A stretch of 64,000 nucleotides of DNA from an uncultured Erysipelotrichaceae bacterium (GTDB lineage Bacteria > Bacillota_I > Bacilli_A > RF39 > UBA660). The translations under genes and the position numbers were made by a program. The stretch is taken from NCBI GenBank assembly GCA_902789225.1, contig CADANC010000001.1, positions 265,438-329,437 on the forward strand, in the 5' to 3' direction. Each line of letters begins with the position of its first letter. Positions within the stretch are counted from its first letter, which is position 1. This document shows, piece after piece, positions 24,414 through 33,158 of the stretch. The notes beneath the pieces are model-generated. The model was not told where the DNA came from. It did not search any database and saw only the letters and a program-made list of their open reading frames with translations.

Positions 24414-25700
24414 TTACTTTACAGGTTCTATTTTCTTTTTACCACCCATATAAGGCTGTAAAACCTTAGGTATATTAATACTTCCATCTTCATTATAATT
24501 GTTTTCTAATAAAGCAATTAACCCACGAGGAGTAGCAACAACAGTATTATTTAAAGTATGTAAATAATATGTTCCATTATCTCCTTTAGCTCTAATTCCA
24601 AGGCGTCTTGCCTGAGCATCTCCTAAAGTAGAACAACTACCTACTTCAAAATATTTTTGTTGACGAGGACTCCATGCTTCAATATCACAAGATTTTACTT
24701 TTAAGTCAGCTAAATCTCCACTACAACATTCTAATTGTCTAACAGGAATATCCCAACTTCTAAATAAATCAACTGTTAATTTCCACATTTTTTCATACCA
24801 ATCCATTGATTCTTCAGGCTCACATATAACAATCATTTCTTGTTTTTCAAATTGGTGTACTCTATATAGTCCTCTTTCTTCTAAACCATGAGATCCACCC
24901 TCTTTTCTAAAACAAGGTGAATAACTAGTCATATTTATAGGTAATTCATCTTTATTAATAATTTGATTTTTATATCTACCAATCATACTATGCTCAGAAG
25001 TACCTATTAAATATAAATCTTCTCCTTCTATTTTATACATCATTGCTTCCATTTCAGGGAAAGACATAACTCCTTCTACAACATCACCATGAATCATAAA
25101 TGGAGGAATTGCATAAGTAAATCCAGCATCAATCATATAGTCTCTTGCATTAGCAAGCATAGCTTCATGTAGTCTAGCAACATCTCCTATTAAATAGTAG
25201 AAACCTTCACCTGAAGTTCTACCAGCAGCTTCCTTATCAAGTCCACCTAATTTTGCAATAATATCTGCATGATGAGGAATTTCATATTTTGGTACCTTTG
25301 CTTCTCCAAATCTTTCAACCTCAACATTTTCACTATCATCTTTACCAATTGGAACACTAGGATCCATAATTTGAGGTATTACAAGCATCTTCTTTCTAAT
25401 ATCTTCTTGTATAGCAGGTAATTCTTCATCTATTTCAGCAATTCGACTACTCATATCAGCAATTTCTTTTTTAGTCTTTTCTGCTTCATCTTTTTTACCA
25501 TCTTTCATTAAAACACCAATATTTTTACTTAGTTTATTCTTATTAGCTTTTAATTCATCACCTTCAGTTTGTAAAACACGAGCTTTCTCATCTAACTCTT
25601 TTATTTCATCAACTAAAGCTATTTTTTCATCCTGAAACTTTTTCTTTATATTTTCTTTTACTACATCAGGATTTTCTCTTATTAATTTAATATCTATCAT
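24414..25700 (-). CDS. serS: Seryl-tRNA synthetase
   Basis: 428 aa, typical. An N-terminal coiled-coil arm (about 28-105) binds the long variable arm of tRNA(Ser). Class II motifs: PPFMIHGDVVEGVM region, SPCFRKEGGSHGLEERGLYRVHQFEKQEM (motif 2), and TLNNTVVATPRGLIALLE (motif 3). GGAGATATATT precedes the ATG. It follows a DUF1653 gene by 23 bp, both under the serine T-box. Confidence 0.98.
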   Translation of the reverse strand: MIDIKLIRENPDVVKENIKKKFQDEKIALVDEIKELDEKARVLQTEGDELKANKNKLSKNIGVLMKDGKKDEAEKTKKEIADMSSRIAEIDEELPAIQEDIRKKMLVIPQIMDPSVPIGKDDSENVEVERFGEAKVPKYEIPHHADIIAKLGGLDKEAAGRTSGEGFYYLIGDVARLHEAMLANARDYMIDAGFTYAIPPFMIHGDVVEGVMSFPEMEAMMYKIEGEDLYLIGTSEHSMIGRYKNQIINKDELPINMTSYSPCFRKEGGSHGLEERGLYRVHQFEKQEMIVICEPEESMDWYEKMWKLTVDLFRSWDIPVRQLECCSGDLADLKVKSCDIEAWSPRQQKYFEVGSCSTLGDAQARRLGIRAKGDNGTYYLHTLNNTVVATPRGLIALLENNYNEDGSINIPKVLQPYMGGKKKIEPVK

Positions 25701-26184: not shown

Positions 26185-26213
26185 ATTATATCACTGATTA
26201 CTTGAAAATACAA
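26185..26213 (-). promoter_or_regulatory. Promoter of the serine T-box operon
   Basis: TTGTAT (26208-26213) and TATAAT (26185-26190) are 17 bp apart with a TG one base before the -10, on the minus strand. The -35 lies in the last codons of the upstream membrane protein gene. Confidence 0.8.
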
Positions 26214-26997
26214 ATGGTTTTTCACAAGACATAGGATCAAAATGATCAAGACTTAAATAAGTAAAGAAGCCTACATCACTAGCATCTAATTCATTAATAT
26301 TAACATTATTAATACCCATAACTCCATCAGTTAAAGTAATATATACATCAGTTTTTCCACTATCATAATGTTCTATTCTAACATAACCCTCTAAACTTTG
26401 TTTAAAGAATGGTGAAACATATGAATTACCAAACTGTTCTTTAGAATCATTAATATTAAAATAATATTGATGAGAAATAGTAGTACTACATTTTTGTCCT
26501 TCTTGACTAAAATATGTTTGTACTTGAAGACCTATATCTTTTGCTTTAACAGCATAGTTTTCTCTTTTTTCACTAAATGAACCCTTTGCACCAGGTAAAA
26601 AGTGAATAATAACCATAATAACAATACCAATAATAATAATATCTAAAATCAAACCAATAAGTTTATTTAAAAAAGTCTTTGTCTTATTAGCATTAATGAA
26701 TTTAGCATTATAATTACCATTATCTGGAGTAACATTATAATTAAAATCAGAATATCCTGATGATTTAGATCTTGGTTTTCTTACTCCATAACTAAAATCA
26801 TTATTAGGTTGACTATCATTTTGACCTTGAAAGATACTAGTATCACTTTTATCTACACTAGGTGTATTGTTAGAAACACTTGGTCCTGATTTATTTCTTT
26901 TGCCTCTAAAGAAATCACCAAATATGGACTTTTTTTCTTCGTATCCTTCTAATTCATCATCTCTAATTGAATTATCATCTTCATTTTTTCCAAACAC
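26191..26997 (-). CDS. Single-pass membrane protein, paralogue of the next gene upstream
   Basis: 268 aa with a GTG start after AGGTGATATAA. About 110 polar cytoplasmic residues come first, then one membrane helix at about 113-132 and a 135-residue outside domain. EGYVRIEHYDSGKTDVYITL in that domain matches EGYIKIVRVDNKYDYYINL at the same place in the neighbour at 27007. Two Cys (KCSTT and MSCEK) also match in spacing. No family recognised. Its end overlaps the promoter of the serine T-box operon. Confidence 0.75.
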   Translation of the reverse strand: MFGKNEDDNSIRDDELEGYEEKKSIFGDFFRGKRNKSGPSVSNNTPSVDKSDTSIFQGQNDSQPNNDFSYGVRKPRSKSSGYSDFNYNVTPDNGNYNAKFINANKTKTFLNKLIGLILDIIIIGIVIMVIIHFLPGAKGSFSEKRENYAVKAKDIGLQVQTYFSQEGQKCSTTISHQYYFNINDSKEQFGNSYVSPFFKQSLEGYVRIEHYDSGKTDVYITLTDGVMGINNVNINELDASDVGFFTYLSLDHFDPMSCEKPFVFSSNQ

Positions 26998-27006
26998 TTA
27001 TATCAC

Positions 27007-27675
27007 CTACCTACAATTACTATCAGTAATAGTATCCATTTCTACTCCAAAATAAGGCAAGACATCCCATGAACTAACTTTTTCAACTTTTTTTTCCATA
27101 ATACCAAATTGTCCAGCCTTCAAATTAATATAATAATCATATTTATTATCTACTCTTACTATTTTAATATATCCTTCATAATTATTATCTAATTTAATAC
27201 CACCTATTTTTTCAATAGATTTAGTATCAAAAACTATATAATAAGCACCATCTATTTCATTACAAGAACTAAAATTATCATTATATTTATTTTTAATTAT
27301 AGAAACAATCTTATTAGCATCTTCAACTACTTTAGTTTGATAACTTTTTACTTTTCCAACAATTACACATAGTATTACTAAAAAGACTGCAAGAATAATC
27401 CATTTAGCAAACTTATTCATAATAGTGAAAAACAGTCCATTTACTTCATGAACTTTTTTCGTTTTTTCTTTAGTTTCTCCAACGTCGATATATTTATTTT
27501 TTCTCTTTAAAAAACTAAAAATACTCTTTTTATTATATTTTTTCAAATACTCATTTTGAGAATTATCATAATTAATGTATCCACAATGAACACAAAATCT
27601 ATCGGTAACTTTCATCTCAAATCCACATTTTGGACACATTATAGATGGAATACGATTATTATCATTTGTATCCAA
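27007..27675 (-). CDS. Zinc-ribbon single-pass membrane protein
   Basis: 222 aa from a TTG at 27675, chosen because GAGGTG lies 6 bases before it; a GTG three codons earlier is possible. The N-terminus is a zinc ribbon (CPKCGFEMK...FCVHCGYIN), then a basic linker, a membrane helix at about 90-108 and an outside domain related to that of the protein at 26191. A zinc ribbon inside and a sensor-like domain outside resemble many Firmicutes envelope proteins of unknown function. Starts 11 bp after the SGNH-like gene. Confidence 0.75.
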   Translation of the reverse strand: MDTNDNNRIPSIMCPKCGFEMKVTDRFCVHCGYINYDNSQNEYLKKYNKKSIFSFLKRKNKYIDVGETKEKTKKVHEVNGLFFTIMNKFAKWIILAVFLVILCVIVGKVKSYQTKVVEDANKIVSIIKNKYNDNFSSCNEIDGAYYIVFDTKSIEKIGGIKLDNNYEGYIKIVRVDNKYDYYINLKAGQFGIMEKKVEKVSSWDVLPYFGVEMDTITDSNCR

Positions 27676-27686
27676 GCAAATCACCT

Positions 27687-28892
27687 CTAACTAATATACT
27701 TACTAAGCTCTTTAGTAACTACACTATATCCTTCTTCATTAAGATTTAATCCATCTTTACTATAATCTTCACTTAAATAACCATCTTCATTTATAAGAGA
27801 AGAATATAAATCAATATAAGTAATTTTGTTTTCTTCACATAAAATCTTAATACCTTCATTTAAGTTAGAAATAGTTTCATTATTTCTACTTTTACTAGAA
27901 TTTCCTACAGGAAGTACAGAAAGAACATAAATATTAGATAAACTTCTATTATTTTTTATAACATCAACTATACCACCTATATTAGTAAGAATTTCTTCAT
28001 TAGATAAATCTTTTAGATAATCATTACTACCTATAGAAATAAATATATCACTAGGATTATAAACTAATGCTCTAGCTTTAATATCTTTAAGTAATGCAGC
28101 ACTAGTATCATCTTCATCAGAAGAATTAACTACATTTTCTTCGCTAATATATTTAGTTAAATCATAATTAGAAAATACATGATCACCTAAGAAAACATAA
28201 TTCTTATCAACAATTTTTACTTCTTTTTCAACAACTTTTTCTTTTACCTTAACTTTATTAATATCATTTCTAAAATATAGATATGTTAATAAACCTCCTA
28301 ATAACAAGAAAAATATACATAAAAATAATTTTCCTAAGAATTTACCAAAACTATGAGTTTTAATAGGCTTATCGGCCTTATTCAAATCTTCTTTTAATTC
28401 TTTAGATTTAACTTTTCCCTCAACAAAACTAGTATCAAGAGATTTAATATCTTTTAATCTATTATCATCAAAATCAAAATCATATAAGTTAGTATCTCCA
28501 GGATTATTATGAATTTCTTGAGAATTATCCAATTCCTTAATTTTCTTAGCTATTTCAGAAGCATCATCATCATTTATAATTCTCTCATCTTTATCATAAA
28601 GATCATCATCTTCATAGTCATCATATGAATCATTTTCTCTAGAATACTCTTGATCAACATAGTCATCTTCTTTAATATCATCAATTATTTCTTGAGTATA
28701 ATTTAACTCATTTTTTTTAACTCTACTAGTTAAAATATCTCTATCTTCATCAAGAACTCTTTCTCTAGCTTCTTCAATTAAATCTTTAGTATCATTAATA
28801 TTTTTATCAATCTTTTTAGTAGTAGTTTTTTTTGTAGTTTTTGTAGTACTTCTCTTAGTAGTACCTTTCTTTTTAGTTGTCTCTTTAGCCAT
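27687..28892 (-). CDS. Membrane-anchored SGNH-fold protein lacking catalytic residues
   Basis: 401 aa from the ATG at 28892, which has GGAGGTG upstream. The N-terminal 180 residues are cytoplasmic: Lys/Thr-rich at first (KKGTTKRSTTKTTKK), then very acidic. A membrane helix at about 187-207 and a short coiled region lead to an outside SGNH/GDSL domain (230-401). Block I reads FLGDHVFSNYDL, with His238 in place of the nucleophile Ser; block III ISIGSND is intact; block V reads DGLNLNEEGY, with Asn383 in place of His. So hydrolase activity is unlikely and binding or scaffolding is more probable. First of three genes with the paralogous membrane proteins. Confidence 0.85.
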   Translation of the reverse strand: MAKETTKKKGTTKRSTTKTTKKTTTKKIDKNINDTKDLIEEARERVLDEDRDILTSRVKKNELNYTQEIIDDIKEDDYVDQEYSRENDSYDDYEDDDLYDKDERIINDDDASEIAKKIKELDNSQEIHNNPGDTNLYDFDFDDNRLKDIKSLDTSFVEGKVKSKELKEDLNKADKPIKTHSFGKFLGKLFLCIFFLLLGGLLTYLYFRNDINKVKVKEKVVEKEVKIVDKNYVFLGDHVFSNYDLTKYISEENVVNSSDEDDTSAALLKDIKARALVYNPSDIFISIGSNDYLKDLSNEEILTNIGGIVDVIKNNRSLSNIYVLSVLPVGNSSKSRNNETISNLNEGIKILCEENKITYIDLYSSLINEDGYLSEDYSKDGLNLNEEGYSVVTKELSKYIS

Positions 28893-28977
28893 ATTTACAC
28901 CTCCAGACACAATCCTAATACTAAGACTATTATATACTATTTATAAATAAAAAGATATAAATATAAAAAAAGTTTAC

Positions 28978-29008
28978 AAAAAAAAAGAAATTAATCAAAT
29001 TTCTTTTT
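28978..29008 (-). terminator. Terminator of the adhesin-sortase operon
   Basis: AAAAGAAATT / AATTTCTTTT stem followed by nine T on the minus strand, overlapping the end of the polytopic membrane protein gene. Confidence 0.8.
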
Positions 29009-29563
29009 AAAGTATATATATAGTTTATAAAACATAGTATAAATAAACCAAATCAGTAATAATAGATTACTAATTTGAACTAAACTAAGTATTGTATTAT
29101 TAGTATATAGTTGTTTCATATCACTTAACTCAATACCATTAGAAGCACTAAGTGTAACAAATAATAAGAATAAAAAATATATACCTACAAAGAAAATATA
29201 ATTAAATATTTTCTTAAACATAGTCATTTTCTTACTAAAAACAGTTACCATAATCATAACAGAAACAAATAATATTATGAAAAAATAAACTATAGTAGAA
29301 GGAAAATATATATATTTCATAATAGACTTAAATAATGATCTAAATGAATAAGAAACATAATCTCCATAACTAAGAAATACTCCTAAAAATAAACCAATAA
29401 ATATAGCAAAAAAGCCTATATTTATAAATATGTTTTTTCTTTTTAAATTAAGAATTAAAAGAATAAACAAAAGTAAACAAAAAATAAACAATTCTAAAGT
29501 AATATATGAAGAAAACATATATTTAATAACAAACCACATCTTATCAAGTAAAGAACTGTTCAT
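28991..29563 (-). CDS. Polytopic membrane protein, unknown function
   Basis: 190 aa with about five membrane segments (about 18-40, 45-68, 83-108, 118-140 and 158-182) and short basic loops; the C-terminus IYFKKKFD is basic. It lies 13 bp after the sortase gene and closes the adhesin-sortase operon. No motif is recognised. An accessory role in export or anchoring of the adhesin is possible but only inferred from position. Confidence 0.7.
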   Translation of the reverse strand: MNSSLLDKMWFVIKYMFSSYITLELFIFCLLLFILLILNLKRKNIFINIGFFAIFIGLFLGVFLSYGDYVSYSFRSLFKSIMKYIYFPSTIVYFFIILFVSVMIMVTVFSKKMTMFKKIFNYIFFVGIYFLFLLFVTLSASNGIELSDMKQLYTNNTILSLVQISNLLLLIWFIYTMFYKLYIYFKKKFD

Positions 29564-29576
29564 AATTTCACCCCAA

Positions 29577-30233
29577 TTATTCTAATTCTGCAACATAAAT
29601 AGTTTGATGATTATTATCATCTTTAGTACATGTAATTAAAGTAAGACAAGTCTTAGACTCATTTCTAATTACATCAACCCATCCAACTTTATCAACATTA
29701 TATATATTAACAATTCTATAATTATATACATTACCATTATAAGTAACACTAGCAGTATCACCAATATTTAATTTATATAAAGTTCTAAAATATGAATTGT
29801 AACCTGTACCTGAATGTGCAACTAATATTAAATTACCATTTTGTACGTCAGGTAAATCAGATCCAGGTAAAAACATAACATTATATTTTATATCATTATA
29901 TTTATTATCAGTATTATAAAATCCTCTTTTTAAATGAATTTTAGGTATCTCTAAAACTCCTAAATATTTACTGTAATCAATTGGCTTTTCCTCTTCCTCT
30001 GGTTTTGTGGTTACAGCAACTTCCTCAGTAATAGGAACATCTTCAACCACTTGAACATTTTCTTCAGAAAATAGAATTAGCATATCAGAATAAAGTTCAT
30101 TCCTAATATCAACTAATTTAGGCCAATTAAGAGCAACAATTCCTCCAAAAACAAGTAAAGAGCCAAATAACATTATCTGGCTCTTTTTTAATTTGTTTTT
30201 ATTGTTGTGTTTGTGTTTTTTGTTTTCTAACAT
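29577..30233 (-). CDS. Sortase, probably dedicated to the upstream VPDTA protein
   Basis: 218 aa. A basic N-terminus is followed by a membrane helix (about 19-37), a linker rich in Val, Pro and Glu, and a sortase domain starting YLGVLEIPKIHLKRGFYN. His140 (VAHSGTG) and Cys202 (LTLITC) are present. The residue matching the catalytic Arg of other sortases appears to be Gln210 (HQTIYVAEL against KRKIFVA in S. aureus SrtA), which is unusual. It overlaps the adhesin gene by 35 bp, so translation is likely coupled. The fold is closer to class A/D than to B; class not settled. Confidence 0.85.
   Translation of the reverse strand: MLENKKHKHNNKNKLKKSQIMLFGSLLVFGGIVALNWPKLVDIRNELYSDMLILFSEENVQVVEDVPITEEVAVTTKPEEEEKPIDYSKYLGVLEIPKIHLKRGFYNTDNKYNDIKYNVMFLPGSDLPDVQNGNLILVAHSGTGYNSYFRTLYKLNIGDTASVTYNGNVYNYRIVNIYNVDKVGWVDVIRNESKTCLTLITCTKDDNNHQTIYVAELE
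30157..30186. other. Strong hairpin inside the sortase start region
   Basis: AAAGAGCCA / TGGCTCTTT with a mostly paired inner part lies about 47 bases into the sortase gene, just after the adhesin stop. On the plus strand it is followed by seven T and looks like a terminator; on the coding strand the T run is poor (TTTAC). It may act as an attenuator or mRNA stabiliser between adhesin and sortase, or end antisense transcripts. Confidence 0.4.
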
Positions 30234-31473
30234 TTATATATAAGATACCTAATCCAGATAACAATACAATTAAACCAACAATATAAATTGTTCCAGAGAT
30301 ATCTGTAGCAGTATCAGGAACTTTAACTATAGAAAAGTCTAAACCTTTACTTACTTCTTTAGGAAGAGTACCTAACATAGTTACAGTTTGATGACCATTA
30401 GCTTTATAATAGTATCCACTGATTACATCAAATTTATAATTAAATACTAATGTAACATTTTTCTTTTCAGTAGAAACTGCATCTTTTGGAACATAAATTC
30501 TAAAATGATCATATGAAGCTAGAGAAATATTAGTTAAATCTTTAATTTCATTACAATCACCACTTGAAGGACAACCATATAACTTAGCATTATCAATTCC
30601 ATTTAATGAAGCAGCAACTGAACTACTACTAGCACCTAATGTTTCAACATTAATCTTACCAGTTCTGTAGAAATCACCAGATTCAGTCCATTGAGAATTT
30701 CCTTCATTAGCAACGCTTAAGTTAATTGAAACGTCATCTAAAGTTCCTTCTTTAGTTAATGCTTCACTTACAGCTGCACTAACTCCATAATGATTAAACC
30801 ATGAATCTCCACCTGGACAATTATAAACTTCCGCATAATCCCCATCATTTGATGAAACTGAAGTAGAAGATTTTATAGCTTCATAATCGAAATCACCTAC
30901 ATACATTTCAGGATTAGAAGGTCCCAATTTTTCAGCTTGATAAGCCCAAACAGCATTTTGTCTTACCCAAGCAGCAATATCTTCACCACTACAAGCATTT
31001 GATGTACAACCAAATTTGTTATTTGAAGAATAATCGTTTTCAATTCTTGCACCAATTTCATCTAATCTTTGAATTAAATAAATTAGTCCAGCATCATTAA
31101 TGCTTCCATCTTGATTTAAAGTAGCTCCATTACCACCATAACCTACTCCATATTCTAGACAAATTCCACGAGCAGTACCACTAGACTCGCCACTAGCTCC
31201 ACCATATTGTAATTTAAATAAGAAAGTAGCAACACTAGCATTATTACCCTTCAAATGTTTATCAACACTTAATGCCTTAACAGATTCAGGCAATGTTTCT
31301 AGACTTTCATATGAATAAGATGGTTTAAATGCAACTACTAATAATATTGAAGCTATAGCGATAAAAGCAATTGCAAAACTTAAACCAACTGTAACATTTA
31401 ACATATTAAATGTCTTTTTTGTTTGTCTTGTTTGTTTTTGGTTTTGATTGTTTTCCATATAAATTTTTTCCAT
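30199..31473 (-). CDS. Probable thioester-domain surface adhesin with VPDTA signal
   Basis: 424 aa. Residues 1-50 hold a long cytoplasmic lead and a signal/anchor helix (about 28-49). Residues about 75-235 look like a thioester (TQXA) domain: Cys105 (GICLEYG) and Gln172 in RQNAVW, which resembles TQxAIW. Such domains form an internal Cys-Gln thioester that can bind host proteins covalently. A beta-rich part follows, and the end is VPDTA (385-389), a hydrophobic helix and RKQKTQTQQ. The signal is not a standard LPxTG, so the adjacent sortase is the likely partner. Confidence 0.75.
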   Translation of the reverse strand: MEKIYMENNQNQKQTRQTKKTFNMLNVTVGLSFAIAFIAIASILLVVAFKPSYSYESLETLPESVKALSVDKHLKGNNASVATFLFKLQYGGASGESSGTARGICLEYGVGYGGNGATLNQDGSINDAGLIYLIQRLDEIGARIENDYSSNNKFGCTSNACSGEDIAAWVRQNAVWAYQAEKLGPSNPEMYVGDFDYEAIKSSTSVSSNDGDYAEVYNCPGGDSWFNHYGVSAAVSEALTKEGTLDDVSINLSVANEGNSQWTESGDFYRTGKINVETLGASSSSVAASLNGIDNAKLYGCPSSGDCNEIKDLTNISLASYDHFRIYVPKDAVSTEKKNVTLVFNYKFDVISGYYYKANGHQTVTMLGTLPKEVSKGLDFSIVKVPDTATDISGTIYIVGLIVLLSGLGILYINVRKQKTQTQQ

Positions 31474-31540: not shown

Positions 31541-32764
31541 TTAACTAATTTCAATTAATTCCTTTACACTTTTAATTCTCATATCTTTATTTATATATAG
31601 TGTAGCAAGCAATTCTCCTCTTTTTACTTTATCACCTAATTGCTTATTTAATTTAATTCCTACACCATAATCAATCTTATCATCTAGCTTAGTTCTTCCA
31701 GCACCTAATTTAACAGAAAGTTTACCAAATTCCAAAGCATCAATCTTTGTAATTTTACCACTCTTATAGGCTCTAATATGTTTAGTCTTCTTAGAAACTT
31801 TCAATTTATTGATGTCTCCACCTTGAGACTTAACCAAATCTAAAAACTTACCATAAGCCAATCCACTATCAATTGAGTTTTTAACTTCCATTAAAGCTTC
31901 TTTCTTACTTATATTTTTTCCTAAGCTGATCATCTCACTAGCTAAGTCATAACAAACATCTACTAAATGAGTGTTTAGTTCTTTGCCTCGTAAAACATCA
32001 ATTGCTTCTTGAACTTCCAAAGCATTACCAATGTTATAACCTAAAGGTGTATTCATATCATTAATAATTACACTTACATTTCTATTATAAATTCTTCCAA
32101 TTTCAATCATTAATTCTTTTAACTTATTAGCATCTTTCATGTTAGAAATAAGCGCACCATTGCCAACTTTTAAATCAATAACTATTGAATCAGCACCACT
32201 TGCTATTTTCTTACTCATAATAGAAGATGCTATTAAACCAATACTAGAAACAGTACCAGTAACATCTCTAAGCGCATAAATCATTTTATCCATAGGAACT
32301 AAATTAGCAGTTTGACTACTTATAACAACACCTATATCTTTAGCTTGTTTTAATATTTCTTTTTCACTTAGATCAACTCTAAATCCAGGAATAGATTCTA
32401 ACTTATCAATAGTACCACCTGTATAGCCTAATCCTTTTCCACTCATTTTAATAACATTAACACCACAAGAAGCAACAATAGGAGCAATTATTAAAGTAGT
32501 CTTGTCACCAATACCACCAGTAGAATGTTTATCAACCAAAGGTCCATTTAATTTATAATTAAGAACATCACCACTATCAATAAATATTTTAGTAAGAGCA
32601 TAAACTTCCTCATCTGTTAATCCGTTAATACATATAGCCATTAATAAACTACTCATTTGATAATCAGCTATTTTCCCATCTAAATAACCTTCAAAAAAAT
32701 CTCTTAATTCAACAAAACTTAATTCTTCCCCCAACCTTTTCTTATTAATAATATCTACTATCAT
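31541..32764 (-). CDS. pdp: Pyrimidine-nucleoside phosphorylase
   Basis: 407 aa from the ATG at 32764, which follows GAAAGGA; an upstream in-frame start lacks a site. It splits uridine, thymidine and deoxyuridine with phosphate. DKHSTGGIGDKTTLI, MSGKGLGYTGGTIDKLESIPG and LKVGNGAL are signatures of the thymidine/pyrimidine phosphorylase family; the shortened C-terminal domain is slightly below the usual 430 residues. It follows a GNAT gene by 1 bp and tdk lies upstream, a nucleoside salvage cluster. Whether it prefers thymidine (deoA) cannot be told from sequence alone. Confidence 0.93.
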   Translation of the reverse strand: MIVDIINKKRLGEELSFVELRDFFEGYLDGKIADYQMSSLLMAICINGLTDEEVYALTKIFIDSGDVLNYKLNGPLVDKHSTGGIGDKTTLIIAPIVASCGVNVIKMSGKGLGYTGGTIDKLESIPGFRVDLSEKEILKQAKDIGVVISSQTANLVPMDKMIYALRDVTGTVSSIGLIASSIMSKKIASGADSIVIDLKVGNGALISNMKDANKLKELMIEIGRIYNRNVSVIINDMNTPLGYNIGNALEVQEAIDVLRGKELNTHLVDVCYDLASEMISLGKNISKKEALMEVKNSIDSGLAYGKFLDLVKSQGGDINKLKVSKKTKHIRAYKSGKITKIDALEFGKLSVKLGAGRTKLDDKIDYGVGIKLNKQLGDKVKRGELLATLYINKDMRIKSVKELIEIS

Positions 32765-32765
32765 C

Positions 32766-33158
32766 CTAATTATTCCTTTCAAATAGATTAGTTCCATATA
32801 TTTCAAAGCCTAAATCTAAATACATTTTATTTGCAGCTTCTCTCTTCGGATTTGAATCTAATTTAATCATTTTACAATCACTACATCTCTCTATAGTATC
32901 AATAACCATCTGTTTTCCATATCCGTGACCCCTATAATCAGGATCAATACAAACAAAATTTATCCAAGCATATTTAAAATTCTTAATAACATCAAAATCT
33001 CTAGTAACATTTAAATATCCTACAACCATTCCATCAACTTCATATACCAAACTCTCAACATTAGAAGATGTATGAACTTTTTCTATATTCATATCAAACG
33101 AACTATCTATTATCTTTTTAACAGCCAAAAAATCATTATCATTATATTCTCTTAACAT
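32766..33158 (-). CDS. GNAT family N-acetyltransferase
   Basis: 130 aa from the ATG at 33158, which follows AGGTGATTAT. The acetyl-CoA loop is seen in CIDPDYRGHGYGKQMVIDTI (Arg/Gln-x-x-Gly-x-Gly/Ala type) and the C-terminal NKMYLDLGFEIYG is typical. Substrate unknown. It is between tdk and pdp and would be co-transcribed with pdp. Confidence 0.9.
   Translation of the reverse strand: MLREYNDNDFLAVKKIIDSSFDMNIEKVHTSSNVESLVYEVDGMVVGYLNVTRDFDVIKNFKYAWINFVCIDPDYRGHGYGKQMVIDTIERCSDCKMIKLDSNPKREAANKMYLDLGFEIYGTNLFERNN

Follow-up and report, generated by a model that had tools for sequence, protein, structure and literature searches.

Within the window (the whole 64,000-nucleotide stretch of DNA that was analysed), which belongs to the assembly of a Bacilli lineage of gut type, a reverse-strand gene encodes a bitopic protein with an SGNH-fold domain at its C terminus (Table 1). 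A GGAGG sequence at 28900–28904 lies 7 nt upstream of the ATG. The N-terminal tail has 47% charged residues (D 17%, K 15%, E 10%, with T at 9%) and leads into the only membrane helix apparent by eye in the protein; orthologs carry a hydrophobic stretch at the equivalent place. We infer a topology in which the tail lies inside the cell and the SGNH domain outside the membrane.

The same run continues downstream with two further membrane proteins whose extracellular domains are homologous to each other. The AlphaFold model of the outer domain of the first, the zinc-ribbon protein, is confident (pLDDT 91), and no clear PDB match was found for it (best Foldseek E-value 1.3, best VIA-align Z 4.0). 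Upstream lie a multi-helix membrane protein, a sortase and a surface protein. The sortase keeps the His and the Cys of the TC motif, and a Gln replaces the Arg that follows TC in the PDB sortase 4d7w (LITCTKDDNNHQ versus LVTCTPYGVNTHR); this Gln is found in all 49 of the corresponding sortases listed, from many genera. The surface protein carries a PDTA sorting-like signal and a helix in the window's genus (also in G003), and PDTG in other genera. A promoter scan of the region returned no more sites than were found in shuffles.

Table 1 Features of the SGNH gene and its neighbourhood in the window
Feature	Position	Strand	Description or basis
serS, downstream slot edge	24414..25700	(-)	named from sequence; synteny
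Third gene of run	26191..26997	(-)	charged tail, membrane helix, extracellular domain homologous to that of 27007..27684
Next gene downstream, 2 bp gap	27007..27684	(-)	zinc ribbon, membrane helix, extracellular domain with two conserved Cys
SGNH-fold bitopic protein gene	27687..28892	(-)	401 aa + stop; ATG at 28892, stop at 27687
SGNH-fold domain, residues 226–401	27690..28217	(-)	Pfam GDSL, AlphaFold2, VIA-align; presumed outside membrane
Block V DGLN, residues 380–383	27744..27755	(-)	Asp380 kept, His replaced by Asn383
Block III GSND, residues 288–291	28020..28031	(-)	intact, IGSND, Asn290 kept
Block II NSSDEDDTS, residues 256–264	28101..28127	(-)	Gly at 258 and 261 replaced by Ser258 and Asp261
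Block I, His238 at nucleophile Ser position	28179..28181	(-)	alignment with relatives; reads FLGDH
Membrane helix, about residues 189–207	28272..28328	(-)	LFLCIFFLLLGGLLTYLYF, by eye from sequence
N-terminal charged tail, residues 1–183	28344..28892	(-)	composition; presumed cytoplasmic, disordered
Conserved tail block, residues 138–171	28380..28481	(-)	alignment of 22 full-length proteins; window sequence DFDFDDNRLKDIKSLDTSFVEGK
Core LDTSFV, residues 152–157	28422..28439	(-)	LDxSF-type core of tail block
190-aa multi-helix membrane protein	28991..29563	(-)	marker for locating slot in other genomes
Slot sortase	29577..30233	(-)	sequence comparison with PDB sortase 4d7w
Surface protein with sorting-signal-like C terminus	30199..31473	(-)	sequence
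Thymidine/pyrimidine phosphorylase-like gene (deoA), upstream slot edge	31541..32806	(-)	named from sequence; synteny

Fold and active site of the SGNH domain

Pfam Lipase_GDSL_2 matches the window protein with an E-value of 5.7e-15, starting only at residue 262 and missing block I, and the best PDB sequence match is 2hsj (E 1.9e-18). An AlphaFold2 model of the domain, generated with 20 aligned orthologs as input, reached a pLDDT of 92 and a pTM of 0.89. When compared by VIA-align, the model superimposes on the sialate O-acetylesterase 6xpm with a Z of 25.9 (RMSD 1.8 Å over 174 residues) and on 2hsj with a Z of 25.4. The predicted domain thus has the alpha/beta/alpha SGNH fold of the superfamily and can be aligned over its full length with active SGNH enzymes, so that structure prediction, a check named in the preliminary description, supports its statement that the overall fold is kept. 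A chance resemblance is excluded by the Pfam match, the PDB sequence match and the confident predicted model taken together. No AT3 acyltransferase membrane domain was detected; above cut-off there are only GDSL-type and OSK matches, and there is a single membrane helix.

Alignment with relatives places His238 at the position of the nucleophile Ser. Block II reads VNSSDEDDT in the window protein as against VNSGISGNT in active relatives, with both Gly replaced, and Asn383 takes the place of the block V His, while block III is retained. The preliminary description had read all four blocks in this way, and its numbering of His238 and Asn383 agrees with ours. Only the block V Asp and the block III Asn are left of the Ser–His machinery. 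Since His238 is the only histidine of the domain, in the window protein as well as in G001 (rumen genome RUG343, same genus, 82% protein identity), a Ser–His mechanism is impossible whatever serines lie near. The single His and the end-to-end alignment of the model rule out a Ser–His pair shifted elsewhere in the domain. A sequencing or assembly error as the source of the changes is likewise ruled out, because G001 has identical residues at positions 238 and 383. We therefore regard the catalytic inactivity of the window protein as near certain, and it would be expected to lack activity in the test tube. For annotation, this is a warning: the protein clears the Pfam GDSL cut-off by a wide margin, yet an esterase acting by the Ser–His mechanism is ruled out.

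Intact and inactive orthologs at a conserved slot

To locate the equivalent slot in other genomes, we took the adjacent 190-aa membrane protein as a guide and also scanned named genomes. Many genera of the family have the slot, with the sortase cluster on one side and serS on the other. It starts with deoA, the surface protein, the sortase and the 190-aa membrane protein; next come, as a rule, a VanY-like gene on the opposite strand and a D-Ala-D-Ala-carboxypeptidase-like gene, in some cases joined by a lytic-transglycosylase-like gene, and then the SGNH gene, spoVS, the zinc-ribbon membrane protein and serS; the names of the carboxypeptidase, VanY-like and lytic-transglycosylase-like genes were assigned from motifs read in their sequences. 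In most slots, the spoVS-like gene (86 aa) comes immediately after the SGNH gene (for example, L079:6975-7235 (+)), but this is not so in the window's genus. The window gene shares with the slot orthologs both the synteny, from sortase cluster to serS, and the LDxSF tail motif described below. Slots of the window's genus lack both the carboxypeptidase-like and the VanY-like gene, so that the case for a wall context in that genus is built on the sortase, the surface protein and orthology. The SGNH gene itself is dispensable, since several genomes have none at the slot.

The slot set comprises 35 different SGNH genes, five of which were first scored as non-slot relatives and then moved into it. 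Ser and His are both kept in 26 of these, and Ser is lost in the remaining nine. The window pair carries His in its place, three species of one genus and G016 carry Phe, and G053, L131 and L154 carry Ala, Ile and Gln, respectively. In these nine, the second block II Gly is likewise gone from every gene, the first from eight and the block V His from five. The alignment proposed in the preliminary description finds His238 and Asn383 conserved only in the window's species pair; at position 383, the other inactive lineages have Asn, Ser, Thr or His. The idea of a pseudo-hydrolase thus stands for the window protein, in which the nucleophile, the general base and the oxyanion-hole Gly are replaced, there is no second His and no other Ser/His pair was found in the active site. 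It does not extend to a settled family: a family-wide pseudoenzyme is ruled out by the 26 intact slot genes, one of which (G003) belongs to the window's own genus. The preliminary description had itself named intact relatives as a finding that would speak against its reading.

Outside the slot, where many relatives lie in surface-glycan clusters, Ser is lost in 0 of 70 scorable genes, with three distant Cys variants set aside. The difference in Ser loss between slot and non-slot genes gives a Fisher p of 2e-5, or 0.002 with the Cys variants counted as losses, for genes that are not independent of one another. SGNH genes adjoining the SUF iron–sulfur operon in three genera of one family (L055–L057, from G069, G080 and G091) have a Cys nucleophile (GDC) and an intact block V His. 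Catalytic loss was not tied to loss of the carboxypeptidase gene, as the intact G003 lacks that gene, whereas the inactive G016, G173 and G053 have it.

How often the active site was lost was estimated from two trees. A quick tree of the neighbour genes, in which some rows fill less than half of the columns, calls for six changes to account for the inactive state, four of them forced by strongly supported branches; it places the intact G003 as the fully supported sister of the window pair. The SGNH gene tree requires five changes (four to six across bootstrap trees), but a single origin of all nine losses is not rejected by AU tests on this tree (p 0.27 and 0.40), which is also subject to long branches. 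Several separate losses of the catalytic residues, with the rest of the protein kept, are likely, though not proven.

The slot tails cannot be aligned over most of their length apart from the block at residues 138–171, in which D153, S155 and F156 are nearly invariant across 22 full-length proteins. The core motif LDxSF, defined here with Leu, Ile or Met first and Ser or Thr fourth, occurs in all nine inactive slot proteins and in every intact one except G003, which makes 34 of 35. When 145 genomes of the family were searched with a profile built from the block, seven strong matches resulted, all of them slot genes, along with three weak ones; the motif also occurs in six SGNH relatives outside the slot. 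A motif of this sort within a charged tail suggests a site at which a cytoplasmic partner may bind.

Between the window gene and its G001 ortholog, dN/dS is 0.14 for the tail (residues 1–180), 0.36 for the SGNH domain and 0.22 overall, at a dS near 0.4–0.7. Selection on the window gene is purifying, with no free drift. For the SGNH domain, intact slot pairs give 0.17–0.39 and the three-species inactive group 0.15–0.24. Inactive slot genes sit on longer branches than intact ones, and relaxed constraint predicts the same faster evolution.

A putative binding module at the cell wall

We propose, with a probability of about 0.5, that the window protein is a single-pass protein derived from a wall-side SGNH esterase or acyltransferase, which has lost catalysis, has kept the fold and would now most likely serve as a binding or scaffold module. 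Inactive relatives of wall enzymes are known regulators in bacteria. The ancestor would have stood at a conserved cell-wall locus and, judging by fold and neighbours, the intact orthologs are probably wall-side esterases or carriers of acyl groups on glycans. In the window's lineage, the SGNH domain would have lost its chemistry and kept its shape, the dead cleft or the domain surface holding either a glycan of the wall or a wall protein as partner. Candidates for such a protein are the two bitopic proteins encoded downstream, with their homologous outer domains. On the other side of the membrane, the LDxSF motif may hold a cytoplasmic partner, and the protein would then connect the locus for sortase and wall remodelling with an intracellular site or machine. 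A role across the membrane, as suggested before, gains support from the conserved cytoplasmic motif, which the preliminary description does not mention, and from the wall-enzyme neighbours in relatives; binding or signalling would be its putative form.

The probable repeated loss of the active site with the rest kept suggests that the shape and the inner tail count for more than the chemistry; catalysis had presumably become dispensable because the function of tail and fold was the one under selection. We extend this only tentatively to the slot protein as a whole, which may be a transmembrane linker whose conserved function lies in the LDxSF tail and the SGNH fold, with catalysis optional and switched off several times in gut Bacilli. 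It would then represent a new type of SGNH pseudoenzyme linking a cytoplasmic partner to the wall. Living and dead versions of one syntenic gene occur both within a genus and between genera, so a non-catalytic role can be tested by comparing these natural pairs.

Alternatively, the SGNH domain may be an unneeded and slowly decaying relic, its reading frame kept only through the tail or through co-transcription with the downstream genes. The higher dN/dS of the domain relative to the tail in the window/G001 pair, the longer branches of the inactive genes and the genomes without the gene all fit such a decay. The domain value is nevertheless well below 1 and inside the range of intact pairs, GD, GxND, DG, YNP and NR are invariant or nearly so in the inactive copies, none of the listed copies has a stop inside the matched region, and the structure model is confident, which makes a relic unlikely in our view. 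It is improbable that the dead domain instead pairs with an active SGNH paralog of the same cell, tuning or anchoring it. Five further Lipase_GDSL_2 proteins are indeed encoded in the genome, of which three are close relatives located in glycan clusters, and heterodimers are known among SGNH enzymes, for example from the PAF acetylhydrolase Ib subunits (1fxw), but the paralogs lie far away in the genome and nothing ties their presence to the inactive state. Two close paralogs in glycan clusters, on contigs C14 and C26 of G000 (L031 and L032), are both cut at contig ends; the assembly therefore breaks inside repeated SGNH genes.

The altered residues could also form a new, perhaps metal-dependent site made of His238, the acidic block II (DEDD) and Asn290. 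The window pair does combine a His with four acidic residues in the old blocks I and II, and Asp occupies the second block II Gly position in four inactive lineages. Against this, the other inactive lineages do not share the His, a single base substitution turns a GGY codon for Gly into one for Asp, and the Pfam and NCBIfam searches returned no known family with a site of this type, and we consider a changed chemistry very improbable. Binding of nucleic acids, as by the OSK domain of insects, has in its favour the Pfam OSK match of the window protein, which scores above the cut-off (29.2 versus 27 bits). The same model, however, matches 14 of the 20 aligned slot domains at E 0.001, most of them with intact active sites, which points to general kinship, and the SGNH domain is most likely extracellular, so this reading is extremely unlikely.

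Comparison with known systems

In full-text searches of the open-access literature, we found no description of a membrane-anchored SGNH pseudoenzyme from bacteria. The SGNH fold is known; new here is its occurrence in a membrane-anchored pseudoenzyme whose syntenic orthologs include living versions. The sialate O-acetylesterase of Phocaeicola vulgatus (6njc, 6xpm, 7pzg) and 2hsj of S. pneumoniae have the SGNH fold in common with the window protein over nearly the whole domain (Z 25–26, 26–29% identity). These are annotated as esterases or as PAF-acetylhydrolase-like, whereas the window protein is without the Ser, the block II Gly and the block V His and differs further in its long charged tail and membrane helix. 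Wall acyltransferases of the OatA, PatB and DltD type likewise have a membrane-linked SGNH domain that acts outside the cell in wall chemistry (PMC9487903). Compared with these, the window protein lacks the AT3 domain and the catalytic residues and has a long charged tail bearing a conserved motif of its own. The OSK domain of insect Oskar is SGNH-derived like the window domain, is proposed to descend from bacterial, largely Firmicutes-like, GDSL genes (PMC7250577) and is described as RNA-binding (PMC9487903). Oskar, however, is an insect protein with a LOTUS domain that is not membrane-anchored, while the window protein is bitopic.

Three further systems, CtCE2, the degenerate LytM proteins and MapZ, are precedents for parts of the protein, none of them a relative by family membership. 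The active site of the CE2 carbohydrate esterase CtCE2 binds cellulose without catalysis (PMC2661963) and so provides a precedent for an esterase site that holds a glycan uncut, although CtCE2 retains its Ser–His dyad and its activity. MapZ of Streptococcus pneumoniae has the layout presumed for the window protein, with a disordered cytoplasmic tail bearing a short conserved binding segment, one helix and an extracellular domain (PMC7055233). The extracellular domains are unrelated, and no MapZ-type family is among the Pfam and NCBIfam matches of the window protein, MapZ being judged here by family matches rather than by direct comparison. The catalytically inactive LytM domains of EnvC, NlpD and DipM regulate autolysins (PMC10336132). 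Their fold is unrelated to that of the window protein; they nonetheless show a wall-enzyme fold that has lost catalysis and regulates other wall enzymes, and the window protein may work alike.
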